A program made the translations under genes and the position numbers. This document shows positions 1 to 62,697 of a stretch of 64,000 bases of DNA, one piece after another (position 1 is the stretch's first letter; each line of letters begins with the position of its first letter). Below the pieces are notes generated by a model. It was not told the origin of the DNA. It searched no databases and saw only the letters and a list, made by a program, of their open reading frames with translations. This stretch comes from a virus, in IMG/VR virus record IMGVR_UViG_3300036398_002581, positions 1 to 64,000 of that record. The stretch is one strand, 5' to 3'.

Positions 1-276
1 CCACCAGTGTCACCGGCTGCGCCTGCCTGCACACGGGCAGGCCCGGCCGGAGGTGCTGACCACCAGTGTCACCGGCTGCGCCTGCCTGCACACGGGCAGG
101 CCCGGCCGGAGGTGCTGACCACCAGTGTCACCGGCTGCGCCTGCCTGCACACGGGCAGGCCCGGCCGGAGGTGCTGACCACCAGTGCCACCGGCTGCGCC
201 TGCCTGCACACGGGCAGGCCCGGCCGGAGGTGCTGACCACCAGTGCCACCGGCTGCGCCTGCCTGCACACGGGCAG
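1..276. repeat. 59-bp tandem direct repeat array
   Basis: Units start at 1, 60, 119, 178 and 237; the last is cut at about 276. Copies 1-3 carry CACCAGTGTCACC and copies 4-5 CACCAGTGCCACC. Each unit holds an imperfect palindrome (GCCTGCC, short loop, GGCAGGC) and CCGGCCGG. The array begins at the window edge, so it may continue to the left. No gene with its own ribosome-binding site is seen. It could be an iteron-type origin, a recombination or packaging-related repeat, or a regulatory region; the sequence does not decide between these. Confidence 0.9.
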
Positions 277-285
277 ACTCGACAG

Positions 286-395
286 CCCCGACCGTGGAAA
301 CGCTACGATATCCCCGACCGTGGAAACCTATACCCCGACCGTGGAAACGGCACGATATCCCCGACCGTGGAAACCTACACCCCGACCGTGGAAAC
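286..395 (+). repeat. Five copies of CCCCGACCGTGGAAAC leader motif
   Basis: Copies start at 286, 312, 333, 359 and 380, with spacings of 26, 21, 26 and 21 bp, so the array is a 47-bp higher-order repeat plus one half. The last copy ends 7 bp before the first start codon of the early operon. The same motif in degenerate form precedes most genes up to 10.2 kb. CGTGGAAACG can fold as a three-pair stem with a GGAA tetraloop. This is likely a regulatory leader (RNA-binding or operator sites) and is not a CRISPR array. Confidence 0.85.
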
Positions 396-402
396 CTAAA
401 AA

Positions 403-684
403 ATGAAAATCGATACCGATGAATGGATCGCGCTCGCGGATGCCTGCAAGCTTGCCGGCATACCGCAGCCGACCGGATACCGTATGGCGAAACGGCTGGG
501 GATCGTGGAAAACTTTTTCGGCGTGAATGTCGTGCGCAAAGCCGACGTTTCCACGCTCGAAAAAAACCGCCGAACCCCTGGAAATCCGAACTGGATCGAA
601 AGCTGGGAGGGAGCCGCGGCCGATGGTGCAAGGGGCACGCCGGCCCGTATGGCGAAACGATCCCCCCGTACCGGGAAACGATAA
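403..684 (+). CDS. Small HTH DNA-binding protein, first early gene
   Basis: 93 aa. Residues about 7-50 read as a MerR/excisionase-like winged helix: an alternating hydrophobic helix (WIALADACKLAGIP), a second helix (TGYRMAKRLGI) and a short beta segment. The C-terminus is basic and low in complexity. The start follows directly on the five-copy leader array, so this gene is best placed to read or be controlled by those repeats. It resembles the HTH protein at 10632-10925 in size and layout. A regulator of the early operon is likely, but no family was recognised with certainty. Confidence 0.65.
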   Translation: MKIDTDEWIALADACKLAGIPQPTGYRMAKRLGIVENFFGVNVVRKADVSTLEKNRRTPGNPNWIESWEGAAADGARGTPARMAKRSPRTGKR

Positions 685-752
685 GTTTTTCTCACGCCCC
701 CAAGTGTCCAACAAACAAAAACCCCGAGATACTCGCAGAAAATATTCTAGAC

Positions 753-780
753 TTGACCGACCCAGTGACGATGCTACCCT
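753..780 (+). promoter_or_regulatory. Candidate promoter TTGACC-16-TACCCT
   Basis: The -35 TTGACC (753-758) and -10 TACCCT (775-780) lie in the 160-base gap before the gene at 844. This gap is more AT-rich than the surrounding DNA and otherwise holds only variants of the GGAAACGA leader motif. The same TTGACC -35 occurs at 5507, 16781 and 46066. Confidence 0.45.
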
Positions 781-843
781 TACCACATGCGGCCGGGTGA
801 TCCCGACCGGCGAAACGATAACCCCCTGAGAGGAAACGCGACG

Positions 844-1110
844 ATGAAAACACTCGACTACATGCAGGCCCGCCGCGGAAACGATGGCCGATACCGCATC
901 TACTACCGTGGCACCTCAAACGAGGCTGCCCCCGGCCATTCGTTCACTACAGCCGCGGCGGCCCGCCGGCATGCGGCGGCCCGCGCCGCCGTGATCGACG
1001 GCCACCGGGAAATCGGTGCCGATGCGGCCCTGGAAGTGGAAAACTTCGACCGCCTCTCGACCGCCGAACTTCACGACCAGTTGGCCTACCTTGCAGACTT
1101 CCAGGGCTAA
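844..1110 (+). CDS. Hypothetical early protein, 88 aa
   Basis: Start chosen at 844 because GAGAGGAAACGCGACG lies just upstream; an upstream in-frame ATG at 787 has no such site. The N-terminus is basic with a tyrosine-rich strand (YRIYYRG), the middle is Ala/Arg-rich helical (about 35-55) and the C-terminus is acidic (ADAALEVENFDRL). No family recognised. Small basic/acidic early phage proteins often bind host factors or nucleic acid, but nothing in the sequence proves that here. Confidence 0.6.
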   Translation: MKTLDYMQARRGNDGRYRIYYRGTSNEAAPGHSFTTAAAARRHAAARAAVIDGHREIGADAALEVENFDRLSTAELHDQLAYLADFQG

Positions 1111-1132
1111 ACCCTACAAAAAGAGACAATTG

Positions 1133-1155
1133 ACCGCCGGCACGTTGCCGGCGGT
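1133..1155. repeat. Intergenic palindrome (ccgccggca-cgt-tgccggcgg)
   Basis: A perfect 9-bp stem (10 with the flanking A-T) with loop CGT, 23 bases after a stop codon and followed by the leader motif of the next gene. The same palindrome recurs at 2335, 3990, 4360, 5895 and 6260. No U-tract follows, so it is not a standard intrinsic terminator. RNA processing or stabilisation, or a protein-binding site, are alternatives. Confidence 0.85.
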
Positions 1156-1202
1156 GCCCCGACCGAGGAAACGACACGACCCCCTAGAAGGAAACGATCC
1201 CA

Positions 1203-2311
1203 TGACCACGACCGCCACCATGCACCCCCTCGCGAAGATTGCCGCCGCCGGCCTGGGCCGGAAGGCCGGCACCATGACCGACACCCGCCACGGCACAACG
1301 TTTGCCGATGCCACCAGCGGCGAAGTGTGGGTGTCGGTCGTGGCCGCCGCCGCCGCCGATGCCCCCGAGGGTATCGCCGGATCGATCACGCCGGCCCCCG
1401 AGTGTGGGGAAGTCGCCGCGGCGGCGATGATCTCCGGCCGCGATCTGCGGCGGATCATCGAGGGGGTGGTGCCTGCCTGCGACACCGAGACGAGCCGGTA
1501 CGCTCTCGGCGGTACGCTGGTCGAGATTGCCGAGGGGTCGATGCTCAACGTCATCGGCACCGATGGCCGCCGGCTGCATGCCGGCCACGTTCAGCCCGCG
1601 TCGATCAGTGGGCAGGCCGCCCCCATCGTCCATGCCGATCACTGGCATGCCCTGGAGGCATCCATCCGCTCTCTCGTCAAGAGTGTCTGCGGTGCTTCCG
1701 GCCGCCGCCTGGAGGCCGTGATCGACCGTGGCACGGTCGGAATCACGGTTACCGTCCACAAGGCCACGGGAGGCCATGTGGTGGCAATCAAGTGGCAGAG
1801 CGATGCCGCCGATAGCCACGGCCGCACGATCAGCGTAACGGCCACGGCCGTGGCCCTCGCCGGCCGTTTCCCGAGGTGGCGGGATGTGATGACCGAGGGT
1901 GGGCGGCGGCTGACGATTGACGCCGCCGCGGTGGCCGCCGCCGCCGCGGAATTCTCCACGCTCCACCGTGCCGAGGAGAAGGTCGGCAAGGCCGCCCACA
2001 AGGCCGAGCAGGCCGAGAAGAAAACCCGCCGGCAACCGACCGGCCCCGACTACCGACTCGACCGCGGCATCGACTGCGGCCCCGCCGGGATGGCAGGGTG
2101 CGGCATCGTGTGGGCCGAGACGATTCCGGCCGCCCCGGTATCGGTGAGGCTCGACCAGCGGTACATCGTCGATGCCCTGGCCGCCGCGGCGGCCTGGAAT
2201 GCGGCGAGCGTGGAGGTGATCGGCACCGACAAGCATTCCGCGGTGACGATCACCACGGGCGAGCATGGCCCGCGGCTGGTGGCCGTGATCATGCCGCTGT
2301 TCCGCGACTGA
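1203..2311 (+). CDS. DnaN-like DNA sliding clamp, shortened domain I
   Basis: 369 aa. Residues about 79-225 match domain II of the DNA polymerase III beta clamp, with the hallmark VIGTDGRRL (DnaN: vATDGHRLA) and GRFPRWRDVM (DnaN: GRFPDYRRV). Residues about 230-369 match domain III, ending in the typical YIVDALAAAAAW block and IMPLFRD (DnaN: vMPMRl). Only about 75 residues precede domain II, too few for a complete domain I. A Lys/Glu-rich insert (EEKVGKAAHKAEQAEKK) interrupts domain III. The product should encircle DNA and tether the replicase. Start 1203 follows AGAAGGAAACGATCCC. Confidence 0.75.
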
Positions 2312-2333
2312 AACCCTACAGATGCAAACAATC

Positions 2334-2358
2334 CCCCGCCGGCACGTTGCCGGCGGGG
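2334..2358. repeat. Intergenic palindrome, longest copy
   Basis: CCCCGCCGGCA-CGT-TGCCGGCGGGG, an 11-bp perfect stem with a 3-base loop, 23 bases after the clamp gene stop. Same family as 1133-1155. It is followed by the CCGACTGAGGAAACGAGACG leader of the next gene. Confidence 0.85.
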
Positions 2359-2401
2359 TGGCCCCCCCGAGCGTAACAACCCCGACTGAGGAAACGAGAC
2401 G

Positions 2402-3427
2402 ATGACCACGACAGTCAAGGATTTCGGAAAGAAGATCGGCGGCGCGGCCAAGGATCGCGCCGCGGCCCGGTGCAGCGAAACGAGCGGAGAGGCTGCGACC
2501 GCCACTGTCACCCGCCGCCGCCGGCAGCCCCGCCCGCCGCGGTTCGGGTGCTATTGGATCAACCCGCAGGCGGGCTATGTGCTGCTGCGTCAGGGCGACA
2601 AGGCGCGGAGGGTGCTGAAGACGTTCGCCACGGTGGGCGAGGCCCGCGGATGGTGGGCTGAAGCGACCGCCACCCCCGACCACGGCCTCGCGACGTTTCT
2701 GGAATTGTGGGAGGCCGCAAAGGCCCGCGAAAACGTCACTGACGAATGCCTGCGACGGCCGGTCAACCGAGCCCGCGCCGGCGTCGATCACCGGGCCGGC
2801 GGCAACGTCACGCCCGAGACGTTCCTCGCGACGTTCGGAGCCTACGGGGTCGAGTTTGGTAACTGGCAGACCGACCGCCACTCCTGCCTCAATCGCACCA
2901 CCGATGCCCTGCTCGACCTCGCCCAGGTCATCCGGTGGCAGCCGGCCGCGATCACGTTCCACGGCCGGCTGGCTCTCGCGTTCGGAGCCCGCGGTCATGG
3001 CAAGGCGGCGGCACATTACGAGCCGGGGCGGCGGGTGATCAACCTGACCAAAACCGCCGGCGCGGGCTGCCTCGCGCATGAGTGGTTCCACGCCTACGAT
3101 CACGCCGCGACGAGCCTGGACGGGGGCAGCGGCTACACCGGCACGGCTGGCCTGCGGCACCTCGCCGCGGTGCTGAACGGCCTGCCGATGGCTGCCCGGT
3201 CGCGCAAGGCCGACCAGACCCGCAGCCGCCCCTACTACTCCACGCCGGAGGAGATGGCGGCGCGGGCTTTCGAGGCATGGGTGCGGAGGCAGGCCGACAA
3301 CGACTACCTCGCGAACATCATCACGCCCGAGGAGTTCGTGAAGGCGAGCGACCGCTACCCGTACCCGACCGCCCCCGAGATGCAGGAGATCGATGCCGCC
3401 TTCCGGCGGCTGTTCGGAATCGCCTGA
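2402..3427 (+). CDS. LPD1-domain protein with HExxH-like metallopeptidase motif
   Basis: 341 aa. Residues about 148-235 match the large polyvalent protein-associated domain LPD1: GVEFGNW, LAFGARGHG, AHYEPGR, INLTKTAGAG and then LAHEWFHAYDH. HEWFH (226-230) with a downstream acidic residue fits a zinc peptidase-like site. The first 50 residues are basic and Arg/Pro-rich. LPD1 domains are usually parts of very large phage or plasmid polyvalent proteins, so a stand-alone copy in an early operon is notable. Substrate unknown; cleavage or binding of a host protein is an inference. Good ribosome-binding context (GAGGAAACGAGACG). Confidence 0.7.
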   Translation: MTTTVKDFGKKIGGAAKDRAAARCSETSGEAATATVTRRRRQPRPPRFGCYWINPQAGYVLLRQGDKARRVLKTFATVGEARGWWAEATATPDHGLATFLELWEAAKARENVTDECLRRPVNRARAGVDHRAGGNVTPETFLATFGAYGVEFGNWQTDRHSCLNRTTDALLDLAQVIRWQPAAITFHGRLALAFGARGHGKAAAHYEPGRRVINLTKTAGAGCLAHEWFHAYDHAATSLDGGSGYTGTAGLRHLAAVLNGLPMAARSRKADQTRSRPYYSTPEEMAARAFEAWVRRQADNDYLANIITPEEFVKASDRYPYPTAPEMQEIDAAFRRLFGIA

Positions 3428-3439
3428 CCTCCGGCACGG

Positions 3440-3460
3440 CCCCGCCGCCCGCGGGCGGGG
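3440..3460. repeat. Intergenic GC palindrome, variant
   Basis: CCCCGCC...GGCGGGG with an internal GCCCGCGGGC, 12 bases after the LPD1 gene stop. It occupies the same position relative to its gene as the CCGCCGGCA palindromes but has a different sequence. Confidence 0.65.
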
Positions 3461-3527
3461 TCGAGCCGGGTGCCATGTGGCCCCCGATTGTGGAAACGAC
3501 AACACCCCTGGAACGAGGAAACGAGAG

Positions 3528-3980
3528 ATGACCGAGCAAACAAAGATCACGCAGCGATTCGCCCTGGCAGACCAGACCCTCCGGCCAAGCCAGCGCAAGC
3601 CGGTGAACGTGACGGTGAGCAGCACCGGCACCGACTACATCTGGATCGAGGCCGAGGGATACGGGCACCCCGATAGCGGCGCGCAGATCGCCGTCGAGTT
3701 CTGGGGCGGCCGGCTGCGGGTGATGGTCTACAACCGCGGCGACAGCGACCCGACCGTGATCGACCTGGAGCATCTGCGGGCAATCAACCTGGGCGCGACT
3801 GTCGGCCGCGAGCAGGGGTGGGACGTTTTTGAACGCGGGCTTGGCTGGATGCAGGTGCAGCGGTGCGACGAGAGCGGCCTGCTCGACAGCGACGAGGAGG
3901 CGATCCGACTGGCGCGGGCCGCGGGCGTTTTGTGCGACGACGGCGGCACGCTGGGAGGCAAAGCCGTCGATGCGATCTGA
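3528..3980 (+). CDS. Hypothetical early protein, 150 aa
   Basis: Start 3528 follows GAACGAGGAAACGAG. Predicted beta-rich: the first half has alternating strands (NVTVSSTGTDYIWIEAEGY, then WGGRLRVMVYN). The C-terminal third is acidic helical (SDEEAIRLARAAGVL). No signal peptide, membrane segment or known motif. Function unknown; its place in the early operon suggests a host-takeover or regulatory role only by position. Confidence 0.6.
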   Translation: MTEQTKITQRFALADQTLRPSQRKPVNVTVSSTGTDYIWIEAEGYGHPDSGAQIAVEFWGGRLRVMVYNRGDSDPTVIDLEHLRAINLGATVGREQGWDVFERGLGWMQVQRCDESGLLDSDEEAIRLARAAGVLCDDGGTLGGKAVDAI

Positions 3981-3989
3981 AGACAAAGG

Positions 3990-4051
3990 CCGCCGGCACG
4001 TTGCCGGCAGTCCCCGACCGTGAGAACCCTAGAGACAAAGGAACCCCGACC
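3990..4051 (+). repeat. Duplicated palindrome-plus-leader, copy A
   Basis: The palindrome (gccggca-cgt-tgccggc) followed by TCCCCGACCGTGAGAACCCTAGAGACAAAGGAACCCCGACC and a start codon. It matches 4360-4420 at all but about four positions, so two successive genes have nearly identical 62-base leaders. AAAGGA is the probable Shine-Dalgarno sequence. Confidence 0.8.
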
Positions 4052-4345
4052 ATGAGAACCACAAACCTGACCCTCGATATCCCCGATTCCGCCTGGATGG
4101 AGAGCGGATGGAACGGCGGCGAGAACGCAGACCGACTCCTCGCCCAAGTCACGATCCTGGGGGCAGGGCATCACATTGAAGCGTACCGCATCGAGGACCG
4201 CGACGATGGGTACATCTGCCTCGCGAATCCCGAGATGGAAGAAGAGTTGATGCCGACGCTTCAGGAACTCTACAGCGGTGCCTACGAGACGGTGACGATC
4301 CGCGGCCATCGGTATGTGCTGTTCATGTTTCCCCATGCCAACTGA
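4052..4345 (+). CDS. Hypothetical early protein, 97 aa
   Basis: Acidic protein with one WxxxxWNGG segment near residue 15 and a Tyr-rich C-terminus ending in a beta strand (HRYVLFMFPH). No recognised family. It shares its whole leader with the next gene, which suggests matched expression. Confidence 0.6.
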   Translation: MRTTNLTLDIPDSAWMESGWNGGENADRLLAQVTILGAGHHIEAYRIEDRDDGYICLANPEMEEELMPTLQELYSGAYETVTIRGHRYVLFMFPHAN

Positions 4346-4359
4346 ACCCGTGACCCCGG

Positions 4360-4420
4360 CCGCCGGCACGTTGCCGGCAGTCCCCGACCGTGAAAACCCT
4401 AGAGACAAGGAACCCCGACT
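4360..4420 (+). repeat. Duplicated palindrome-plus-leader, copy B
   Basis: Second copy of the 3990-4051 leader, differing at about four positions (GTGAAAACC for GTGAGAACC, one A fewer in the Shine-Dalgarno run, GACT for GACC). Confidence 0.8.
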
Positions 4421-4858
4421 ATGGCAACGAAGGCAAAGAAGACCGCGAAGCGTGAGTTTCATGTTGTCCGCTACTGGCCCGTGGAATACCGCTCCATCGC
4501 CTATGTGCAGGCATCCAGCCCCGAGGAGGCCGCGAAACTCGCGATGGAGGATGACGACTTCGACGACCAGGAAGCGTGCGACGGGAGCGACGGCGATACC
4601 GAGATCGGCACCATCGTCGAGATCACGCCCGAGGGGCTGGAAATCGAACACACGGTGCCGAACATCGACGAGGAGATGGCGGGCGTGTCCTGGTGCGTGA
4701 GAGACATTCAGGAGCGGATGCCTGCCTGGACGGTCGATCAATGCATCGACTTCCTGAACGCCAACGAAGACGCGATCCAGGTTGCCATGATCGAGGCGGG
4801 CAACCGCCTGATCGACGATGAGATCAGGCGCGGTGGCGGCGAGCCGGCGAACGACTAA
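4421..4858 (+). CDS. Hypothetical acidic early protein, 145 aa
   Basis: A lysine-rich start (ATKAKKTAKR) is followed by a compact alpha/beta region (EFHVVRYWPVEYRSIAYVQA, then SPEEAAKLAMEDDDFDD) like small phage proteins that pair a beta sheet with an acidic helix. The second half is helical and acidic. The strongly acidic stretches could mimic DNA, but this is only a guess from composition. Confidence 0.6.
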   Translation: MATKAKKTAKREFHVVRYWPVEYRSIAYVQASSPEEAAKLAMEDDDFDDQEACDGSDGDTEIGTIVEITPEGLEIEHTVPNIDEEMAGVSWCVRDIQERMPAWTVDQCIDFLNANEDAIQVAMIEAGNRLIDDEIRRGGGEPAND

Positions 4859-4866
4859 GGCCGATC

Positions 4867-4895
4867 CCGGCCGGCGGCACGTTGCCCCCGGCCGG
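4867..4895. repeat. Intergenic palindrome, variant
   Basis: CCGGCCGG...CCGGCCGG with GGCGGCACGTTGCCCC between. It keeps the CACGTTGCC core of the main palindrome family inside longer arms and lies 8 bases after a stop codon. Confidence 0.7.
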
Positions 4896-4932
4896 CGGAA
4901 CGAGACGAACCCTGGAACGAGGAAACGAGACC

Positions 4933-5199
4933 ATGAGCGAATACATCGACCCCGGCGAGGCAACAAAAATCCGCGTTCACCATGAAGGCGGCGGTGCCTG
5001 GGCAATCGATGCCGCTGATGATGCCGGTCGATACACCGACTCCAACTGGAATCGCGACGGCGGCCCCGACAACAAGATGACCCGCGAGCGGGCGATTGAA
5101 CTCGTTCCCGAGTTCGTCGCCCACCTGGGCTTGCCTGCCGGCCTGCCCATCGAAGTTCGCGAATGTGATCCGCAGCGAGTAGTCGAGGTGATCCGATGA
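4933..5199 (+). CDS. Hypothetical early protein, 88 aa
   Basis: Start 4933 is chosen for GAACGAGGAAACGAGACC upstream. Contains YTDSNWNRDGGPDNKMTRERAI, a single Trp and a C-terminal helix. Its stop overlaps the next start (ATGA at 5196-5199), which indicates translational coupling. No family recognised. Confidence 0.6.
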   Translation: MSEYIDPGEATKIRVHHEGGGAWAIDAADDAGRYTDSNWNRDGGPDNKMTRERAIELVPEFVAHLGLPAGLPIEVRECDPQRVVEVIR

Positions 5200-5510
5200 C
5201 CGGCTACCAACTCTCCCCCAGGATCACGCTCCACCCCGGCGACCGCTTCCGCGTGGCCGGCGGCCCATACTACCGGCTGGCATCCGGCGAGAAGGTGCCG
5301 CTCGCCGCCCGCGGCGTGTTCACGCTGCTGGCGGTCGATGCCGGTCGGCGGGGCAGGGTGCAACTGCTGGCCTACGGTGCCGGTGGCTTCGCCGTGATCC
5401 ACGTTGCCGGCCGGCGGCGGTCGCGGGTGGCGGGGCTCGTCTGCCGTCCTTATCGGGTGCGGCGGGCGGGCGGGCAGAAAAAAATTCGGGCCGCGCGCAA
5501 GACGGCTTGA
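5196..5510 (+). CDS. Hypothetical basic beta-rich protein, 104 aa
   Basis: Overlaps the preceding stop by ATGA. The body looks like a small beta barrel (GDRFRVAGGPYYRL, GVFTLLAVDAG, GRVQLLAYGAGGFAVIHV) followed by a very basic tail (RRAGGQKKIRAARKTA). An SH3-like or nucleic-acid-binding fold is possible. The end of the gene overlaps the next promoter candidate. Confidence 0.6.
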   Translation: MTGYQLSPRITLHPGDRFRVAGGPYYRLASGEKVPLAARGVFTLLAVDAGRRGRVQLLAYGAGGFAVIHVAGRRRSRVAGLVCRPYRVRRAGGQKKIRAARKTA

Positions 5511-5536
5511 CCGCCGGCGTAATCATTGTGTAGGAT
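5507..5536 (+). promoter_or_regulatory. Candidate promoter TTGACC-18-TAGGAT
   Basis: The -35 TTGACC at 5507-5512 (sharing the stop codon of the previous gene) and -10 TAGGAT at 5531-5536. It lies 44 bases before the start at 5580. The gap is less GC-rich than its neighbours and has no palindrome, unlike most gaps in this region, which fits a transcription restart. Confidence 0.55.
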
Positions 5537-5579
5537 TGACCTAGAGCAAGACGATACTAAAAACACAAGGAGCGAGACG

Positions 5580-5891
5580 ATGACACAAGACCGAGCAAAA
5601 TACCTTCTGGTGAGCACGTTGATGGGCGGCGACCTGCGATATGCGTTCCGCCTGGGCAACGCAACGTACCGTCTCTATGGCGACGGCATGACCCGCAGCG
5701 AGTACGAGGCAGTGCGGGCACTGTGGATCACGATGCCGGGATCGGCATCTTTCTATTCGGCACTGTGCGAGGTGGCTGCCGGCCGCATGGTCTGCCCGCC
5801 GCGGCTGGCCTGCGAGGCATGCGGATGCACCGGGCAGCCGCACTACTTTGTCTGGACGGGCGGCGAAACGCTCTGTGTCGATTGCGGCTGA
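5580..5891 (+). CDS. Small zinc-ribbon protein, 103 aa
   Basis: The C-terminus has CEACGC (residues 85-90 region) and CVDCG at the very end, a CxxC...CxxC pair about 20 residues apart that should bind one zinc. The N-terminal 70 residues are helical with no known motif. Start 5580 follows ACAAGGAGCGAGACG, one of the best ribosome-binding sites in the region, and the gene is first behind its own promoter candidate. Zinc-ribbon phage proteins often contact RNA polymerase or DNA; the target here is unknown. Confidence 0.65.
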   Translation: MTQDRAKYLLVSTLMGGDLRYAFRLGNATYRLYGDGMTRSEYEAVRALWITMPGSASFYSALCEVAAGRMVCPPRLACEACGCTGQPHYFVWTGGETLCVDCG

Positions 5892-5894
5892 TTC

Positions 5895-5917
5895 CCCGCC
5901 GGCACGTTGCCGGCGGG
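5895..5917. repeat. Intergenic palindrome, perfect copy
   Basis: CCCGCCGGCA-CGT-TGCCGGCGGG, 10-bp stem, starting 4 bases after the preceding stop and running straight into a CGTGGAAACGAC leader motif. Confidence 0.85.
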
Positions 5918-5953
5918 CGTGGAAACGACGAAACCCCCTACGGGAGAACGACG

Positions 5954-6250
5954 ATGGGAATGATGAAAGAGTCGATCATGCTGATGGGCGAACGCGGGTA
6001 TGTGACCGTGAGCAAGAACGATCAGCACCGCTGGCAGGGCGCGCTCGCCCGCATACTGCCTGTGACAGAAGTGGCGATCGAGGTGCGTGGCCGGGAGATG
6101 ATCGAGAACGGCCTGCCCGCGGCCGAGGCTCGCGCTGTGGCGGCCGACCCGCGGATCGATGCGAGCGACCGGAGCAACCTCGCGTTCCTGCTTGAGGTCG
6201 CCGGCCTCGATGCGGATGGGGCCAGCGTTTCCTGGTGGATGCGACGGTGA
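5954..6250 (+). CDS. Hypothetical early protein, 98 aa
   Basis: Start 5954 follows CGGGAGAACGACG. The N-terminus is Met-rich (MGMMKESIMLM) and the rest is helical with Ala/Arg and a Trp pair at the end (VSWWMRR). No recognised family. Confidence 0.55.
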   Translation: MGMMKESIMLMGERGYVTVSKNDQHRWQGALARILPVTEVAIEVRGREMIENGLPAAEARAVAADPRIDASDRSNLAFLLEVAGLDADGASVSWWMRR

Positions 6251-6259
6251 CCGACATTC

Positions 6260-6282
6260 CCCGCCGGCACGTTGCCGGCGGG
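6260..6282. repeat. Intergenic palindrome, perfect copy
   Basis: CCCGCCGGCA-CGT-TGCCGGCGGG, identical to 5895-5917, 9 bases after a stop codon. Confidence 0.85.
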
Positions 6283-6306
6283 TGCGACAGATACGAAACT
6301 ACACTA

Positions 6307-6320
6307 CCCCCGGACGGGGG
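6307..6320 (+). promoter_or_regulatory. Leader hairpin CCCCC-GGAC-GGGGG
   Basis: A five-pair GC stem with GGAC as the loop, 22 bases upstream of the start at 6342. GGA in a hairpin loop is the known recognition form for CsrA, which this phage encodes. That link is an inference. Confidence 0.5.
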
Positions 6321-6341
6321 AAGCGATGCGAAAGGGAAACG

Positions 6342-6587
6342 ATGCAGACACTGACACTAGACCAGTTGGCAGGCAAGCGAATTCGGGAGGCGAGGCCGCT
6401 CACGCCCGCTGAATTGCACTGCGAGGGAAACGGAGCATACGCGGGCATCCTCCTCGACCTGGGCCGCGCCGGCGCGATCGTGATCGTTCAGAAAACGCTG
6501 GACGATGACGAGTGCCCGAGCGACGACTACTGGACGGAGGCCCGGTGGATGACGAACGACGGCCGCGACGTTGACCTGACAGCCTAG
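6342..6587 (+). CDS. Hypothetical early protein, 81 aa
   Basis: Start 6342 follows GAAAGGGAAACG. A small alpha/beta protein: strand AGAIVIVQK, acidic turn DDDECPSDDYW, then WMTNDGRDVDL. No family recognised. Confidence 0.6.
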   Translation: MQTLTLDQLAGKRIREARPLTPAELHCEGNGAYAGILLDLGRAGAIVIVQKTLDDDECPSDDYWTEARWMTNDGRDVDLTA

Positions 6588-6682
6588 CCGACCCCCCGCT
6601 ACCCCCGGCCGGCGAAATGCTGACCGGGGATTGCGGCGGGCCAGCGTGGCCCCGAACGTGGAAACCTCAGAGGAGAGCGACG

Positions 6683-7162
6683 ATGAACCTGGACAACCTG
6701 GATTTCGAGCAGATGCCCGCTGACGCGGGGCAGGCCGTGAGCGTGGAATACGCAGTCGATTGGGAGAGCGACACGCTCTACCGCCGCACGGCCGATCGCA
6801 GCCGGCCGCGCAGCGGCGTGGCGATTCACGCGGCCAGCATCACGGACGGCGAGTTCGACGCGCAGAACGGCATCCTGCCCGAACATGGCGAGTGGCGGCC
6901 TGCGGACGAGGCGACCGCCGCGGCGGATGGCCGCGGCCTGCACTATCGCTCTGCTGAGTGGCAGCGGCTGGCCGAACCCCTGCACTGGCAGGGCATCTGG
7001 CCCGTCATCGACGCCAGCGGCGAGCTGACCGGCGCGATCAGCGAGGGCGGCGAGGACGAGCTGAACGTGGACGACGAGGCGATGATCGACGCCGACGAGG
7101 CCCGCGACGGCGGCTGGCGGATCGACGCCGAGGATGGGTCTGCCTGCCAGCCGGCTGCCTGA
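6683..7162 (+). CDS. Hypothetical early protein, 159 aa
   Basis: Start 6683 follows CAGAGGAGAGCGACG. Acidic overall, with a beta-rich middle (GVAIHAASITDGEFDAQNG) and a very acidic C-terminal third (EDELNVDDEAMIDADEARD). No known motif. Confidence 0.6.
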   Translation: MNLDNLDFEQMPADAGQAVSVEYAVDWESDTLYRRTADRSRPRSGVAIHAASITDGEFDAQNGILPEHGEWRPADEATAAADGRGLHYRSAEWQRLAEPLHWQGIWPVIDASGELTGAISEGGEDELNVDDEAMIDADEARDGGWRIDAEDGSACQPAA

Positions 7163-7236
7163 CCCCCGGCCCGTGGAAACGAGAACCCGATTCACCCCCA
7201 TGCCGCCCCGTGCGGCGAAACACTAGGAGAGAGACG

Positions 7237-7815
7237 ATGACACTGAATGAAAACGAGATCGATGACCGCACTGCCTTCGCGCAGGGCGACGAGTTTGCGA
7301 CCGAGGCGGAGGTGCGGGATTACTTCACAGTCGAGTCGATGGTGGAGATGTTTGGTCGCGACCCTGAGTACGTCGCGCCTACTCAGGAGGAATTGACCGA
7401 GTGGGCGGATGCGGTCGTCGCCAACCGCTGGCACATGGAACCGCTGCCTGCCGTCGCAGTCGAATTCGCCATCGACAGCGAGACGATCTGCAACTGCGCA
7501 AACATTGACGAGTTCGCGGGATTGGGGCATCCGTACCAAAAAGATGCCACCGAGGCCTACCGCAGGGCGGCGATTCACTCCCTGCGAGATGATCCTCGCG
7601 CCAATCGCATGGATGACTGCCCGCCGAAGGGGCCGCGGTGCCTCCACTCCCAGTGGCGTGGAGCACACTGGGGCTATCACTCAGGTGCAATCGGCACGAT
7701 GGCGGCTGACCTGACAGATGCCGAGAAGGCAGCGATCTCCGCGGCCGACGATGCCGGCCGCGAGGCGGCAAGGAAGGTGATCGCGGAGGCTGATGCCGAC
7801 GCGGCGGCTGAGTAG
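7237..7815 (+). CDS. Hypothetical early protein, 192 aa
   Basis: Start 7237 follows CACTAGGAGAGAGACG. Acidic N-terminus, a central CNCANIDEF segment, CPPKGPRCLHSQW further on, and a long Ala-rich helical C-terminus (AEKAAISAADDAGREAARKV). The Cys/His pattern is too loose to call a zinc site. Function unknown. Confidence 0.6.
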   Translation: MTLNENEIDDRTAFAQGDEFATEAEVRDYFTVESMVEMFGRDPEYVAPTQEELTEWADAVVANRWHMEPLPAVAVEFAIDSETICNCANIDEFAGLGHPYQKDATEAYRRAAIHSLRDDPRANRMDDCPPKGPRCLHSQWRGAHWGYHSGAIGTMAADLTDAEKAAISAADDAGREAARKVIAEADADAAAE

Positions 7816-7844
7816 ACCCCAGGTCGTGGAAACGAGAACACACA

Positions 7845-7884
7845 CCCCAGCCGGCCCCGGCCGGCGAAACGAGAGGAAACGACG
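7845..7884 (+). repeat. Leader with CCGGCC-CC-GGCCGG palindrome, copy 1
   Basis: CCCAGCCGGCCCCGGCCGGCGAAACGAGAGG, palindrome 7851-7864, directly upstream of a start codon. The same block occurs at 8575-8612 before another gene. Confidence 0.75.
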
Positions 7885-8184
7885 ATGCTTGCTGAAACAT
7901 GGAATGAAACTGACGGATACGGGATCCCGAGGATGACCTCGCAGGTTGGATTGAAACGCCGCTACAGCTACGACGGCGGCCAGACATGGCGGCACAACGC
8001 ACGGCTGGCCCGCAAGGCCGCGGGGGTGCCGGAACCTTGGTACTGGCTTGATGGGGTGCCGTATTGCCCTGCCTGCGTCGAGGCCGATTCGCCGTGCATG
8101 GGAGGCGATGAGGCCGCCCGCGCTAATAGATCACCGGCTTCGCAATGGGATTGCCGCTGCGCCTGCTGCGGGGTGCAATCATGA
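7885..8184 (+). CDS. Cys-rich protein with two CxxC pairs, 99 aa
   Basis: The middle holds WYWLDGVPYCPACVEADSPC and the C-terminus DCRCACCGV, together a probable zinc-binding unit with CPAC and CACC. The N-terminus has RRYSYDGGQTWR. Its stop overlaps the next start (ATGA, 8181-8184), so it is probably coupled to the ASCH gene. Confidence 0.6.
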   Translation: MLAETWNETDGYGIPRMTSQVGLKRRYSYDGGQTWRHNARLARKAAGVPEPWYWLDGVPYCPACVEADSPCMGGDEAARANRSPASQWDCRCACCGVQS

Positions 8185-8540
8185 TGATGGGCATCAACAT
8201 CAACGACAAGACCCAAGACTTCACCGCTCAGATTCTGCGCGGCGAGAAGACGGTCGAGACCCGCCGCACCAACTCGCTCCGACCGTATGTGGGGCAGCGG
8301 GTAGGCATCGTCCGCACCGGCCGGGGGCGGGCGACACTGGTCGGTTACGCGACGATTGGCGAGCCGATCCGCTACGAGAACCAGAAGCAGTTTGCGAAAG
8401 ACCGCGCTCGCCACCGGGTGGCGGCGGGCTCCCCGCACGACTGCGGCCCCGAGGGCAAGTTTGGCTACCCCATGATCGACGTTGAAGCGACGACGCCCAG
8501 GGCGGTGACGAGCCGCGGGATTGTGGCGAGAAGAATCTGA
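8181..8540 (+). CDS. ASCH domain protein
   Basis: 119 aa. Shows the ASCH pattern: ILRGEKTVETRR, a turn to YVGQRVGIVRTGRG and strand ATLVGYATIGEP, then a helix and a C-terminal strand. ASCH domains are PUA-like folds that bind RNA or modified nucleotides; some bacterial members are N4-acetylcytidine amidohydrolases or ribonucleases. The first of three tandem ATGs (8181, 8184, 8187) overlaps the previous stop. Role in infection unknown; RNA processing or control is likely. Confidence 0.7.
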   Translation: MMMGININDKTQDFTAQILRGEKTVETRRTNSLRPYVGQRVGIVRTGRGRATLVGYATIGEPIRYENQKQFAKDRARHRVAAGSPHDCGPEGKFGYPMIDVEATTPRAVTSRGIVARRI

Positions 8541-8574
8541 CCGAGCACCCCGAACGACGAAACGATAGACCATA

Positions 8575-8612
8575 ACCCAGCCGGCCCCGGCCGGCGAAAC
8601 GAGAGGACGACG
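8575..8612 (+). repeat. Leader with CCGGCC-CC-GGCCGG palindrome, copy 2
   Basis: Second copy of the 7845-7884 leader block; palindrome at 8581-8594, followed by GCGAAACGAGAGGACGACG and the start at 8613. Confidence 0.75.
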
Positions 8613-8855
8613 ATGGCAAAGAAGAAAACAGCAAAGAAGCCGAGCCGAAGAAAAGCCGCCCCCAAGTTTGCCCGAGGAACGATGGTCTTCTGGCTTGAGG
8701 ATGCGAAGCCTTGGTGGATCGTCGAGTGGCAGCCCAACAACGGCCGCGACGGCTGCTACTGGATCACCGACTACATCGGCACCTGCGGCGGAGCCGGCGA
8801 GCGCGAGTTGAGCCTGTTCCCCGGCGAGGCACCAGTTCTGCGGACGGGATTCTGA
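8613..8855 (+). CDS. Hypothetical basic protein, 80 aa
   Basis: Lys/Arg-rich N-terminus (AKKKTAKKPSRRKAAPK), then a beta-rich core with several Trp (MVFWLEDAKPWWIVEWQP) and a Gly/Cys loop. It looks like a small nucleic-acid-binding beta protein with a basic tail. No family recognised. Confidence 0.6.
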   Translation: MAKKKTAKKPSRRKAAPKFARGTMVFWLEDAKPWWIVEWQPNNGRDGCYWITDYIGTCGGAGERELSLFPGEAPVLRTGF

Positions 8856-8932
8856 GACAACATCCACCCGCGCTCGAGGGCCGCCGCCACCCCCGAGCGC
8901 AACAACCCCGTGCGGCGAAAGCAGAGGAAACG

Positions 8933-9316
8933 ATGACGAAAGAAGGCTTCAAGATCGACAAGAAGAAGCGAATGTCGAAGAAGGCGGTCTGCGCCTACTT
9001 CGGCGATCGCGGGATGCCGGTATCGCCCGCAGAGGTGGCTTTCCACGCGGTCGGCACGTTCACAAGCAGGAAGTGGGATCACGAGCACGGCGGTCGCTTC
9101 ACCAACGAGCTGGAGACCATCCCGGCCCTGGCCGTGATCATCAAGGAACGGCCGGCTGGCATCTGCGACTGGGGCGACACCGACGAGGGCCGCATGGATG
9201 TCTACTCGCTCAGAGACATTTACGGCGAGTGCCAGGACGATGTCCCCGCCCCGAAGTACGCTATCGCCGCGGCGAAGCGGGCAGCCCGGCCGGCGAAACG
9301 AAAGGCAGCCCGATGA
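8933..9316 (+). CDS. Hypothetical basic early protein, 127 aa
   Basis: Start 8933 follows GCAGAGGAAACG. Lys-rich start (KIDKKKRMSKKAV), globular centre with GDTDEGRMDVYSLRDIYGE and a basic C-terminal tail (AAAKRAARPAKRKAAR). ATGA overlap with the next gene at 9313-9316. Function unknown. Confidence 0.6.
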   Translation: MTKEGFKIDKKKRMSKKAVCAYFGDRGMPVSPAEVAFHAVGTFTSRKWDHEHGGRFTNELETIPALAVIIKERPAGICDWGDTDEGRMDVYSLRDIYGECQDDVPAPKYAIAAAKRAARPAKRKAAR

Positions 9317-9501
9317 TCACCTACGGCCCGATCCCAGGCGAGATTCGGCGTGAGTGGCTACAGCTCATGTTCGACAACATGCGAATGCACCGCGAGCTGC
9401 GGCAACGCAAGCGTAGGAGCGCCGGCCTCCCCGCCGGCAATCTGGTCACCGGATCGTTCCGGCGGCCCGTCCGAGGAAACAACAGGAACCCCCGATCATG
9501 A
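9313..9501 (+). CDS. Hypothetical basic small protein, 62 aa
   Basis: ATGA overlap with the upstream stop. Helical N-terminal half (IRREWLQLMFDNMRMHRELRQ), then Arg/Gly-rich and probably unstructured. Coupled by overlap on both sides, which supports it as real. Confidence 0.5.
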   Translation: MITYGPIPGEIRREWLQLMFDNMRMHRELRQRKRRSAGLPAGNLVTGSFRRPVRGNNRNPRS

Positions 9502-9674
9502 AAAACCGAGTGACCCCCTACGAGGCCGGCTGGCTGACATTTCTGGTCAGCAGCGGCATCGCCAGCGAGGCTGCCTGCCGCGCCGCGATGAATCGCGTGG
9601 CCCAGGACGCCCTCGACGAGATCAACCGCCTGCGGGAAAAGAAGCGGGCTAGCAAAAAACGCAAGGATCAATAG
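9498..9674 (+). CDS. Small helical protein, 58 aa
   Basis: ATGA overlap with the preceding gene; CAACAGGAACCCCCGATC precedes the start. The sequence begins MKNRVTPYEAGWLTFLVSSG, continues as an amphipathic helix and ends in a basic tail (REKKRASKKRKDQ). It ends the block before the AT-richer gap at 9675. Confidence 0.55.
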   Translation: MKNRVTPYEAGWLTFLVSSGIASEAACRAAMNRVAQDALDEINRLREKKRASKKRKDQ

Positions 9675-9701
9675 GCTACTGGTCGATAGTTAATAGGCTA
9701 C
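9672..9701 (+). promoter_or_regulatory. Two TAGGCTAC boxes
   Basis: TAGGCTAC at 9672-9679 and 9694-9701, 22 bp apart, in the gap before 9735. The same octamer, read on the minus strand, lies upstream of csrA (25642-25649), a small membrane-protein gene (43502-43509) and the capsid gene (62696-62703). In two of those cases TAGGCT fits a -10 box; here no clear -35 is seen. Confidence 0.4.
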
Positions 9702-9734
9702 GAAACGATACTTCACTTCAAAAGGAGACTCAAC

Positions 9735-10040
9735 ATGAGTCACGCAGTAGGCGATAGGGTCTGGAGCGCATGGGTGTCGACGAGGAACATCGACGCGATT
9801 GAGTCGATGGTGACTTCGGTCGTCGTCGTGGCGGTGATCGAGGAGCGGCCCCTGTTCCGCCTGTATGGCGGCGGGGTCCGCGAGAAGTACGAGTTTGAGA
9901 CGATCTGCCTGACCGAGGCGGATGCCTGGGCTCACTGTGCCCAGGAGATCGCCGCAGTACGCGATCGCGTCGTGGCCTCCGCCGAAAACGCCATCGCCAA
10001 GGCGGCGTCGTTCCGCGTCGGGGAGGCTGTGCCCGTATGA
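9735..10040 (+). CDS. Hypothetical early protein, 101 aa
   Basis: Good Shine-Dalgarno AAAAGGAGACTCAAC. Small alpha/beta protein: strands MVTSVVVVAVI and PLFRLYGGGV, then an acidic helix (TEADAWAHCAQEIAAVRDRV). ATGA overlap with the following short frame. Confidence 0.6.
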   Translation: MSHAVGDRVWSAWVSTRNIDAIESMVTSVVVVAVIEERPLFRLYGGGVREKYEFETICLTEADAWAHCAQEIAAVRDRVVASAENAIAKAASFRVGEAVPV

Positions 10041-15321: not shown

Positions 15322-15938
15322 CGCAGAATTGCCTCCATGAGTGAGGCGCGGCGGTCGGGGAGCGTGGTGGCGTGAAAGAAGCGACAGCCGGCGAAACCCC
15401 TGGGGTCTCTGGCGTGCGGATTCCACTCATACGGCAACTCCGCCCAGGCCCGGCCCGCGGGAACCGACACGGGCGTGGCGTCGGGGTCGCCGCCGAGGGC
15501 CGCGATCAGCGCCGCCTGCTCCCACCAGCCGGAGGATCGGCGAAAGCTGTCAAGCGGCCAGAGGCTCTCGAGCAGTTTAACGGCCTCGGGCCGCGCGAGC
15601 CATACGCCGCAGTTCGGGACGGCTCCGTCTGCGGTGTGATGCACTACCAGCCCCATCGGAGCGTCGGCGGGCAGGTCGTCGAGGATGTCCTTGTCGTACT
15701 CGACCACGCCGACATCGGCGTCCAGCCAGAGCACGGCGTCGTAGCCGCCCTTCAGGAGCGACAGGATCAGCGGAATCTTGCCCCACGACACGGGCCGGCT
15801 CATGCTGCGGAACTGCTCGCCAGAAGGTACGAACAGATCGTACCCGTGCTCCTGGGCATACCTCGCAAACGTCGGCAGCACTGCGTCGAGTAGTTCGGCC
15901 ATCGGCCCCAGCCCGAATGTGGTGAGCGCCTTCTTCAT
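15318..15938 (-). CDS. Glycosyltransferase (GT34/GMA12-like)
   Basis: 206 aa. SWGKIPLILSLLKGGYDAVLWLDADVGVV is the GT34-type core with a WLDAD metal motif, and WWEQAALIAAL the acceptor helix. Start 15938 (ATGA overlap with the methyltransferase stop) is preferred to a GTG two codons earlier. Confidence 0.75.
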   Translation of the reverse strand: MKKALTTFGLGPMAELLDAVLPTFARYAQEHGYDLFVPSGEQFRSMSRPVSWGKIPLILSLLKGGYDAVLWLDADVGVVEYDKDILDDLPADAPMGLVVHHTADGAVPNCGVWLARPEAVKLLESLWPLDSFRRSSGWWEQAALIAALGGDPDATPVSVPAGRAWAELPYEWNPHARDPRGFAGCRFFHATTLPDRRASLMEAILR

Positions 15939-16456
15939 CTCCACCCCACGAACAGGGCGCGACCCTTGGAGTCAGTATCAATCCCGGTCGTGCTGAACTT
16001 CGCCGCCACCGCCGCCTGCATGGCGTCGTCAAGCTGCTCGAAGTCGTGGATCGCCAGGATGCTGCTCGTAATCTCGACGCAGCCCAGGTACTCGAGGAAC
16101 GCCGCCGGCCCGTGGACCGCGTCATGAAACACAAGGTCGAATTGCCCCGGATGACACTGAGCCAGATAGGACGCGGCGTCCACGGTAACCGGGCTGATGT
16201 TCGTGATCCCGAGGCTCGCCCAGTAGGTCGATCGCATCGCCTCGGCCACGGTGTCTGACAGGTCAACCGCCGTGATCGCAGACTCCGGCGAAGCCAGGGC
16301 CATCGCCGCGGCCGACAGCCCCCTATGGCTGCCCAGCTCGAGGATTCGCCACTGCTTGCCTTCGACGGCCTCGCACAGCATGCGGATATGCCGCCGGTCG
16401 GTGGTCATCGGGTGCGAGTCATCGATGGACTCGACGAATTCACGCCAATCGCTCAC
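15935..16456 (-). CDS. Class I SAM methyltransferase (Methyltransf_24-like)
   Basis: 173 aa. GTG start overlapping the VRR-NUC stop (GTGA). SAM motif I is RILELGSHRGLSAAAMA, motif II ITAVDLS, then FDLVFHDAVHG and ILAIHDFEQLDDAM. Resembles sugar or peptide O-methyltransferases often clustered with glycosyltransferases. Likely decorates a glycan made by the neighbours. Confidence 0.75.
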   Translation of the reverse strand: MSDWREFVESIDDSHPMTTDRRHIRMLCEAVEGKQWRILELGSHRGLSAAAMALASPESAITAVDLSDTVAEAMRSTYWASLGITNISPVTVDAASYLAQCHPGQFDLVFHDAVHGPAAFLEYLGCVEITSSILAIHDFEQLDDAMQAAVAAKFSTTGIDTDSKGRALFVGWR

Positions 16457-16746
16457 GATACGTTCTCCAGAAAATGCCTCGCCTCGGCCGCCGAGGTCAC
16501 GACGGCCACCGGGCATCCTGCCGCCGAGAGTTCACGCATTCTGTGGAGCTGGATTTTCGTCGGCTCTTCGCCTGGGCGTTTGCACTCAAGCCAGAACGCG
16601 CGGCCGTTCTTGACCATGAGCACGTCAGGGACGCCGGCCATCGAATAGGCGTTCCCGTGGAACTTCGTCGCCCAGAAGCCCAAGGCTCTTCCTTGAGCCA
16701 TGACATTTGCAACGATGGTTTTCTCCAGGGGAGCTTTCCGTTGCAT
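16453..16746 (-). CDS. VRR-NUC domain nuclease
   Basis: 97 aa. Motif order fits VRR-NUC: an N-terminal helix, GVPDVLMVKNGRAFWLECK (active-site Asp, Glu, Lys), Q-R-Mxxxx-GxPVAVV. These PD-(D/E)XK enzymes cut branched or flap DNA. Begins directly below a promoter whose -10 box is six bases from the ATG. Confidence 0.85.
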   Translation of the reverse strand: MQRKAPLEKTIVANVMAQGRALGFWATKFHGNAYSMAGVPDVLMVKNGRAFWLECKRPGEEPTKIQLHRMRELSAAGCPVAVVTSAAEARHFLENVS

Positions 16747-16752
16747 CCCCTG

Positions 16753-16781
16753 ATTGTCTGCTACAGAAGCCTTACGGTCAA
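16753..16781 (-). promoter_or_regulatory. Promoter TTGACC-17-GACAAT, leaderless placement
   Basis: On the minus strand -35 TTGACC (16781-16776), 17-base spacer, -10 GACAAT (16758-16753), then six bases (CAGGGG) and ATG. Transcription starting about seven bases after the -10 would begin at the start codon. It overlaps the end of the upstream HTH gene. Confidence 0.6.
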
Positions 16782-17113
16782 GACGAAAACATGTACTGTT
16801 CGCGGTGGAAGTAGAAGTGCGGCACCTCGACGGGGTTGCTGCGATAGCCGACGAGCCGAGACCTACGCTCCTCGGGCGTCCACGTTGCGCGGATGGCGGC
16901 GGATCGCTCGGCTATCTCCTCGGGGGTCGGGTCCGGGGTCTCTGTGCTCCTGGCGGCAGTGAACTGCGGCGGTCGTAGCCCCAGGCGATGCTTGCGGACG
17001 AGGTTGTAGAGGTGTCCGCGGGTGCAGCCGAGCTGCTCGCAAATCTGGTCGCTCTTCATCTCGCTCTTCCAGAGATGCGTCAGGTACTTGAGATCGATGG
17101 GCGGGCAGTGCAT
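16778..17113 (-). CDS. GcrA-like HTH protein, 111 aa
   Basis: Start 17113 with AAGGAGGATTCC upstream. N-terminal HTH (YLTHLWKSEMKSDQICEQLGCTRGHLYNLVRKHRLG) spans residues about 9-45 and resembles GcrA: a short helix, 'S-xQI-xxxLG' recognition helix, then a linker and IRATWTPEERRSRLVG. Paralogue of 14027-14452. Likely a transcription regulator. Confidence 0.65.
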   Translation of the reverse strand: MHCPPIDLKYLTHLWKSEMKSDQICEQLGCTRGHLYNLVRKHRLGLRPPQFTAARSTETPDPTPEEIAERSAAIRATWTPEERRSRLVGYRSNPVEVPHFYFHREQYMFSS

Positions 17114-17150
17114 GGAATCCTCCTTGAAGTGATGAGTAAAACAGCCAGCA

Positions 17151-17855
17151 TCATTGCTCGACCCATGCCAGGGTCCACCGCGACGTGCTGGAATCGTCGC
17201 CGGCCCAGAGTTCGTTGTATTGTTCTCGCTCCCATATTTCTGGCGTGTTGTGTTCGCCCATGTCGCGGCCGATGTTTTGCGTGCGGGCCAGCGTTGGGCG
17301 AATTTCATAGCGGTCGCCTCGCGTCTGCGTGTTCTGGATGACATCCCATGTAACTTCGCCCCCGACGGGCCACGCCTCGCGCATCTCGGCCCACCTGTCG
17401 GCCCATGTCGCCCAGCCCCAGGGCGTGAACCATCTGTGAGCGTCGGCACCGTCTGGCAATCCGTTGGCGGTGTTATACGCGGTCACAGAGAAGACGCGGT
17501 CGTTGTTGCCGAACTGCCTCGCCCACTCAAACCACAGGAGGCAATCCCTGGCTGGCGGCGTGTCGTCCTCGAGGTGGATGTGGTAGTCGCTCTGCGAGAA
17601 ACCGATGTCCAAGGCTGCGAATATCGCCCCGTTGCAGCCGAGCTTGGCTGCCGGGAATCCGATGCTCCACCCCTCGCTCGCATACTCCGACGCCACTGCC
17701 AGCGTCTCGTCGCACCCCAGGTCTACTATGACAGTGACGACGTACTCTTCGACGCCGTGGCACCGCTTCAGGGATTCAAGCGTTCGTCGCGTATACGCTG
17801 GCCTGCGGCAGGCGGTGACCGTGACTGTTTTTGTGTGCCTCTGCCGCTCGCTCAC
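17151..17855 (-). CDS. Glycosyltransferase (GT13/GT2-like)
   Basis: 234 aa. GTG start overlapping the upstream stop. VTVTACRRPAYTRRTLESL and YHIHLEDDTPPARDCLLWF give the fold and an EDD metal motif as in GNT-I-like transferases. The third glycosyltransferase in this block. TPWGWATWADRW may be the acceptor-binding part. Confidence 0.65.
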   Translation of the reverse strand: MSERQRHTKTVTVTACRRPAYTRRTLESLKRCHGVEEYVVTVIVDLGCDETLAVASEYASEGWSIGFPAAKLGCNGAIFAALDIGFSQSDYHIHLEDDTPPARDCLLWFEWARQFGNNDRVFSVTAYNTANGLPDGADAHRWFTPWGWATWADRWAEMREAWPVGGEVTWDVIQNTQTRGDRYEIRPTLARTQNIGRDMGEHNTPEIWEREQYNELWAGDDSSTSRWTLAWVEQ

Positions 17856-25672: not shown

Positions 25673-26126
25673 GATGTCTTTTGCACTCGTCCTTCACCAT
25701 CGATCGCGGGTGGCTTTCAGCCGCCCACTTCAGGTAGTCCATGCCGCGAGGCTGCTTCTCGACCTCGGCGAGAGTCAGGCCAGCGAAGCGACCGTCTCGC
25801 AGGACGAACTCCTGCTCGCGCGGCTTTAGATGCCCCTTGATCGCCTTGACCCACTGGCCGGTGCCGCAGAACACGCACGCCAGATACCACTCGCCGTGAT
25901 CCTCGTGCAGGATGTCGTGGCACTGCGTGCCGCAGCGGCCGTCGGCGCAGTCGTAGGTGTGGTCGATCATCCCGATGGGGAGGATCGCCCTAGTGGGCAA
26001 TTCCCCTATATAAATAGGCGTTTTTTCGGGTTCCTGTTCTGGAACCGTCTGCGGCGCGCTTGGCCGTTTTGCCGACCCCCTCCGTCTGGTCGGCTCATCG
26101 GGAGAAACGTCGAAGAGCAGGCTCAT
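25647..26126 (-). CDS. Zinc-containing DUF3820/exonuclease-X-tail-like protein
   Basis: 159 aa. Middle: CADGRCGTQCHDIL ... CVFCGTG, a zinc site. C-terminus: FVLRDGRFAGLTLAEVEKQP then DYLKWAAES matches the DUF3820-type domain found in exonuclease X-like proteins. It lies next to helicase and primase genes, so a DNA-processing role is likely. The csrA promoter overlaps its end. Confidence 0.6.
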   Translation of the reverse strand: MSLLFDVSPDEPTRRRGSAKRPSAPQTVPEQEPEKTPIYIGELPTRAILPIGMIDHTYDCADGRCGTQCHDILHEDHGEWYLACVFCGTGQWVKAIKGHLKPREQEFVLRDGRFAGLTLAEVEKQPRGMDYLKWAAESHPRSMVKDECKRHLDRTLGTR

Positions 26127-27829: not shown

Positions 27830-27851
27830 ACGCCGAATCGGCGTCTTTTTC
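27830..27851 (+). terminator. Hairpin with U-tract on the plus strand
   Basis: GACGCCGAATCGGCGTC then TTTTTC, a rho-independent form reading rightward. The surrounding genes are all leftward. It overlaps the end of the primase gene. It may stop antisense transcription. On the minus strand the same hairpin has no U-tract. Confidence 0.55.
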
Positions 27852-29706: not shown

Positions 29707-29751
29707 GATGTACCTCCATGTATTGCCAAGAAAAAAGCCCTCCCCTCCCAC

Positions 29752-31663: not shown

Positions 31664-32143
31664 TCAGAACGGGGCTGCCTCGTTGGTCGTTGCCCCCGGA
31701 ATCGTCAGGTGCCGAAGTTCAGGACGGACGTACTCGCTGACGATGCCAGCGAACGGAGTCCCCTCGGCCCAGGGCTGGCGGGCGTCCCTGCCCGCAGCCT
31801 GCGACATCTCTTTGAGCAGGCTCTTCAGTCGGGTCGTGTTGACGCCGACCAACTGGGCCTCCATCCCCGCTGCTCGTGCCGCGGCCAGAATCGCGTCCTG
31901 CTTTTCTGCCGTGGCGGTCACCGAGTGAACCCACTCGATCCGCCAACTCCGTCCGGCGACTCGCACTCCGTCGAGTCTTCCTGCCGTCATTTCCTCCACG
32001 GCAATGCTCGCGAGCTTGTCGCGGCGCTTCTTCAGTTCCTTGACAGCCATTTCCGCCGAGTCGATCTCTCGGTCGATTCTGGAGATCGCCTCAAGCGCGC
32101 TCGACAGCGGTGTGTCTTGCTCTGTAGCCTTCGCAGATGACAT
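31664..32143 (-). CDS. Hypothetical coiled-coil protein, 159 aa
   Basis: Start 32143 (ATG). N-terminal coiled coil (AISRIDREIDSAEMAVKELKKRRDKLASI), then GRSWRIEWVHSVTATAEKQDAIL and a C-terminal region. Overlaps the helicase end by 53 bases. In phage replication modules such proteins are often host-nuclease inhibitors or recombination accessories; unproven. Confidence 0.5.
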   Translation of the reverse strand: MSSAKATEQDTPLSSALEAISRIDREIDSAEMAVKELKKRRDKLASIAVEEMTAGRLDGVRVAGRSWRIEWVHSVTATAEKQDAILAAARAAGMEAQLVGVNTTRLKSLLKEMSQAAGRDARQPWAEGTPFAGIVSEYVRPELRHLTIPGATTNEAAPF

Positions 32144-62681: not shown

Positions 62682-62697
62682 CAATGTCTCTCTATGT

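Follow-up and report, generated by a model that had tools for sequence, protein, structure and literature searches.

Clamps are textbook rings, and a DnaN-like gene at the left end of a tailed-phage genome raises the question of whether a subunit with a reduced first domain can still close one. We analyzed the first 64 kb (the window) of a 69,569-base IMG/VR virus record, in which an earlier note had described a bacterial-type clamp with a shortened domain I and only two recognizable domains, whose subunits would trimerize like PCNA. The gene, P0001, is a DnaN-derived clamp-like gene at 1202..2311 on the + strand, stop included, and encodes 369 aa. The start at 1203 given previously is wrong because 1203..2311 is not divisible by three; the open frame begins at the ATG at 1202. 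We also tried a GTG at 1016 as an upstream start and rejected it, as it overlaps another gene and an intergenic hairpin and the relatives of P0001 begin at ATG.

Sequence profiles see only the beginning of domain II in P0001. PHROG 947 matched residues 69-125 (3e-6) and TIGR00663 residues 76-126 (2e-6, at 26.9 bits, under the curated NCBIfam cut-off of 137.65), while Pfam PF02767 gave 0.03. Domain III is weak by sequence (an HMM of host domain III gave a domain E-value of 0.0017) but clear in the AF2 model, which was computed from a 45-sequence alignment (all of our models come from alignments of modest depth) and reached a pLDDT of 89 and a pTM of 0.88. The model has a DnaN fold, with a DALI-scale Z of ~25 to many solved beta clamps over 285-294 residues (2.6-3.5 A), and the best 50 fold matches listed were all DnaN entries, with no PCNA among the matches listed.

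One departure from a standard beta clamp lies at the N-terminus, where ~66 residues precede domain II, compared with ~125 in E. coli beta. Residues 9-60 (1226..1381, + strand) were modeled as one helix and three to four strands (H9-14, E23-29, E32-38, E42-49 and E57-60), corresponding to a single one of domain I's two beta-alpha-beta3 halves, and a profile comparison assigned this N-terminus to the first half, with P = 0.0026 as against 0.39 for the second. Domain II is complete (residues 67-231; 1400..1894, + strand), as judged from profile matches and the model. In domain III (residues 232-369; 1895..2308, + strand), the model and alignment indicate that the first half has been rebuilt, and an extended 35-residue helix (residues 241-275; 1922..2026, + strand; H241-275 in the model) runs where the canonical helix ends in I272/L273. 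This helix is conserved in three relatives (L105, L160 and P0003) as an Ala/Lys/Arg-rich stretch. By model and profile comparison, then, P0001 does not have three complete domains per subunit, since it retains half of domain I, and that same half, standing besides domains II and III, sets it apart from the two-domain subunits of PCNA and gp45. The DnaN affiliation is borne out by the DnaN structures that head the fold matches, as are the reduced domain I, no complete version of which appears in the monomer prediction, and the view of this protein as an unusual bacterial-type clamp.

Could the short domain I be an artefact? Between the upstream stop (1110) and the ATG there are 91 bases, and the missing piece amounts to ~50 residues. 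The same N-terminal plan recurs in four further members, P0002, L105, L160 and P0003, which together with P0001 form one clade (support 95/90 in a domain II tree) with the same domain plan, P0002 being cut by a contig end after domain II. Since 91 bases are too few and the plan recurs in four members, neither an assembly error nor a misplaced start codon accounts for it. A split clamp with domain I encoded elsewhere was also considered and rejected: six-frame translation of the entire 69.6 kb record yielded neither a second clamp nor a separate domain I. The loss of conserved parts, together with the full-length clamps of related phages, might suggest a decaying, non-functional remnant. However, the gene is under purifying selection, with a dN/dS of 0.18 relative to its closest relative (90% identical) and of 0.185 over residues 1-66, and five clade members share the same plan and a conserved pocket, so that we regard decay as very improbable.

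We then considered what the missing half means for ring closure. In the E. coli beta dimer, I78 and F106 of one subunit pack on I272 and L273 of the other, and ion pairs form between K74 and E298/E300, R96 and E300, R103 and E304, and R105 and E301/E303 (PMC11139829). The half of domain I absent from P0001 holds all of the domain I residues of this interface (K74, I78, R96, R103, R105 and F106). On the opposite face, alignment and model place Q/A at 272/273, within the 35-residue helix, and show a poorly formed edge strand around E298-E304. Read from an alignment at ~30% identity, as is the pocket described below, the conserved dimer interface (I78, F106, I272, L273 and the ion pairs) is thus deleted or replaced. 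Among the full-length host and phage clamps aligned, almost all are hydrophobic at 78 (mostly I), with F/W at 106 and I/V at 272. For P0003, the aligner puts a few residues at 103-108, a placement that is uncertain.

This loss bears on two readings in which P0001 would still join a ring. In one, it would act as a poison subunit, forming a mixed dimer with host DnaN and breaking its ring; P0001 does derive from a host-type clamp and the two have their fold in common, but no canonical face is left for either host domain I or host domain III, and we consider this highly unlikely. In the other, a functional ring would form through a new interface, as a trimer or other oligomer held together by the free edges and the long helix. 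The model does contain domains II and III, the two-domain clamps PCNA and gp45 form trimers, and the long helix, being conserved, has a role. PCNA and T4 gp45 are built from the same domain unit as P0001, but their subunits each consist of two entire domains with the trimer interface intact, whereas P0001 has two and a half and no apparent trimer interface. The PCNA-like trimer put forward in the earlier note is therefore disfavored, because half of domain I plus domains II and III make five half-domains, which cannot tile the twelve of a six-domain ring. In addition, on established clamp geometry, the domain II edge needed by a two-domain trimer should be covered by what remains of domain I, the domain III edge has been rebuilt with its strand poorly formed, and a related full-length clamp, P0004, has Ala-Ala at 272/273. 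A ring closed in a new way seems to us unlikely, though less so than the poison subunit.

Loss of the ring-closing contacts contrasts with the state of the hydrophobic pocket between domains II and III, which grips clamp-binding motifs. Using the pocket residue list of PMC11139829, we found the equivalents of R152, L155, T172, G174, R176, L177, P242, V247, Y323, V360, M362 and P363 kept in P0001. It differs from E. coli at R246 and N320, where it has D, as do planctomycete host clamps. Three + strand pocket motifs were located in the alignment: TDGRRL (residues 120-125; 1559..1576; E. coli T172-L177), which every aligned clamp has, L160 with K in place of the first R; GRFPRWRDV (residues 221-229; 1862..1888), which includes the positions of E. 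coli P242 and V247; and VIMPL (residues 362-366; 2285..2299; E. coli V360-M364). Clamp geometry, as given by the E. coli interface residues and by established PCNA/beta structure, explains the pattern. Across the subunit boundary, domain I presents its second half to the first half of the neighbor's domain III; pseudosymmetry then pairs the other half of domain I with the second half of domain II, and the first half of domain II with the second half of domain III, the site of the pocket. The inter-subunit contact has thus been deleted or rebuilt and the pocket contact kept, which argues against a PCNA-like trimer as well as against the canonical dimer. P0001 is more likely to be a ringless binder or decoy than to form a PCNA-like three-part ring.

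With moderate confidence, we infer that P0001 is a ringless, DnaN-derived pocket-binding protein. Loss of the second half of domain I and rebuilding of the first half of domain III around the long helix would have removed both canonical dimer faces, and the retained pocket would allow P0001, as a monomer, to bind host clamp-binding proteins (Pol III alpha, clamp-loader delta and others) off the ring. It could then serve as a decoy or adaptor while the phage takes over host replication. We propose this role because of an analogous mutant: the I272A/L273A form of E. coli beta, whose dimer is weakened or lost, has an affinity for delta ~50 times that of the dimer and is unable to tether Pol III (PMC11139829). 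That mutant shares with P0001 a clamp fold and pocket and a broken dimer interface, but it is an engineered two-residue change, whereas P0001 would be a natural deletion and rebuilding. For P0001 in particular, the decoy or adaptor role is a tentative suggestion, held with less assurance than ringlessness and pocket binding themselves.

The partners of such a protein are probably host proteins, as no canonical clamp-binding motif was found in the phage's own proteins, where two five-residue and four six-residue matches, none of them canonical, compare with ~1.5 of each expected by chance. The host itself is likely a planctomycete, since L160 was found in a metagenome-assembled genome (bin72), and the DnaN of that genome itself, L187, clusters with those of planctomycetes. 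No replicative polymerase was recognized in the window phage, which encodes a PrimPol, and the phage may therefore depend on host Pol III. A decoy would then hinder host Pol III unless its expression were timed. Set against DnaN of planctomycete hosts and full-length phage clamps, P0001 shares the domain II/III fold and the pocket residues at ~30% identity, and differs in its deleted second half of domain I, rebuilt first half of domain III, missing interface residues and near-neutral charge.

That charge brings in the main rival, a non-ring processivity factor resembling herpesvirus UL42, which is described as a clamp that is monomeric, forms no ring and binds DNA directly (PMC9690074). P0001 would on this account be a monomer that lies on DNA through basic surfaces and tethers a polymerase through its pocket, with no need of a clamp loader. 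The four full-length proteins of the short clade have net charges of -2 to +1 (pI 6.6-7.8), the full-length clamps compared are more acidic (-2 to -23; pI 4.6-6.1), and a separate short form, L159, has a net charge of +1. The long helix has a basic end (EEKKRRRQ in L105), monomeric E. coli beta retains DNA binding (PMC11139829), and no clamp-loader gene was recognized among the proteins scanned. However, the net charge is merely neutral rather than strongly positive, and most related records that share the PrimPol lack the gene, which is also located outside the cluster of replication genes. UL42 resembles P0001 in idea, both being clamp-fold proteins conceived as monomeric and non-ring, but it serves a eukaryotic virus as processivity factor and binds both DNA and the viral polymerase, activities that are hypothetical for P0001. 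We hold a DNA-binding tether to be improbable, if the most serious competitor to the ringless pocket binder.

The genomic setting of the gene was examined as well. P0001 belongs to a group of small, rightward-oriented genes at the left end of the record, adjoined by a gene for an LPD1/LPD5 protein (2402-3427, + strand), and the leftward replication genes are far off. The phage further encodes a UvrD-type helicase (26123-27775), the PrimPol (27850-29751), an SNF2-type helicase (32091-33479), an integrase (34448-35416), tail genes (~36-43 kb) and a major head protein (61200-62684, - strand). A search with P0001 found the clamp in 3 of 50 related records, many of which are fragments, so that single absences are weak. 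A profile search found it in 7 of 41 records, 72-74 kb relatives included; five of these seven (G052-G056) had been chosen because they were already known to carry clamps. One related record, G004, has the LPD-domain gene and no clamp. Since distribution among related records is patchy while PrimPol is present in 10 of the 12 tested, the clamp looks like an accessory gene rather than part of the core replication set.

Reduced or altered clamps also occur outside the short clade. P0004 (L103:1180-2382) is a full-length phage clamp with Ala-Ala at the I272/L273 positions, a placement anchored by NEQCRGV next to it in the alignment (SEQSKGV in the host), and with V at the F106 position, making it a natural counterpart of the monomerizing I272A/L273A change; its record encodes a head protein 86% identical and a PrimPol 93% identical to those of the window phage. 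We do not claim a stepwise loss leading from such a clamp to P0001, because the domain II tree places P0004 insecurely relative to the short clade. Elsewhere, L159, which forms a long branch of its own, likewise has a short domain I, domain I of L157 is unrecognizable, and of L155 and L156 there remain just domain II and, from domain III, the second half. The L156 protein (L156:2627-3229; 201 aa; model pLDDT 78) is DnaN-like, with a Z of ~15 over residues 1-178, and has independently lost both interface halves while retaining the pocket side. Several BFVD phage proteins of 160-280 aa, labeled 'DnaN' or uncharacterized, match its model, including gp20 of Burkholderia phage AH2 (L287:8499-9125; 209 aa), which is annotated as DNA polymerase III beta subunit and whose gene is located apart from AH2's own polymerase gene. 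Short phage proteins of this type (PHROG 3007, AH2 gp20, L155/L156) comprise domain II and part of domain III in ~190-210 aa with no domain I, whereas in P0001 half of domain I survives and domain III, though rebuilt, is present. It is conceivable, though we would not press it, that phages have repeatedly made ringless beta clamps by removing the ring-closing halves and keeping the pocket, and that the products interfere with host Pol III and the clamp loader as dominant-negative decoys, being natural versions of I272A/L273A.

Phage-encoded DnaN and short phage DnaN-like proteins are already present in databases; in the open-access literature we found no study of a ringless phage DnaN-type clamp. 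A tblastn search of annotated phages and plasmids with P0001 returned no phage and one weak partial plasmid match (E 0.7). A genome scan with P0001 alone as query recovered no relative, one with an alignment recovered L160 and host DnaNs, and a second viral-contig scan with the short-clade alignment added no further short-clade member. If the ringless reading is true, a bacterial-type clamp without a ring but with the client pocket would separate two functions that are normally joined, could be used as a naturally occurring inhibitor of, or probe for, bacterial clamp-binding proteins, and would imply that many short phage 'DnaN' database entries are not sliding clamps.

Some further observations were made along the way. 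PHROG 3007 matches L156 (7e-10), L105 (4e-5), P0003 (2e-3) and L160 (3e-3), with P0001 not among the matches listed, and carries the label RusA-like Holliday junction resolvase. Because the L156 residues that match it are those matching PHROG 947 and the Pfam DnaN central domain, and because AH2 gp20 is a strong PHROG 3007 member yet annotated as a Pol III beta subunit, the label appears to be wrong and the family to consist of mini-clamps. The sequence GGCACGTTGCC occurs seven times, each time on the + strand (starts 1139, 2341, 3995, 4365, 4876, 5901 and 6266) and between small genes of the early region (positions 1139-6276), against 0.07 expected in the window. The repeat is mostly the tip of a longer hairpin whose stem varies between copies and related phages; Rfam gave no match in window 1-10000, these hairpins included, and the repeat is possibly an intergenic regulatory or termination element. 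Finally, positions 15935-17855 (- strand) hold a methyltransferase-like gene (3e-7) and a GNT-I-family glycosyltransferase-like gene (2e-9), which perhaps serve surface or DNA modification.
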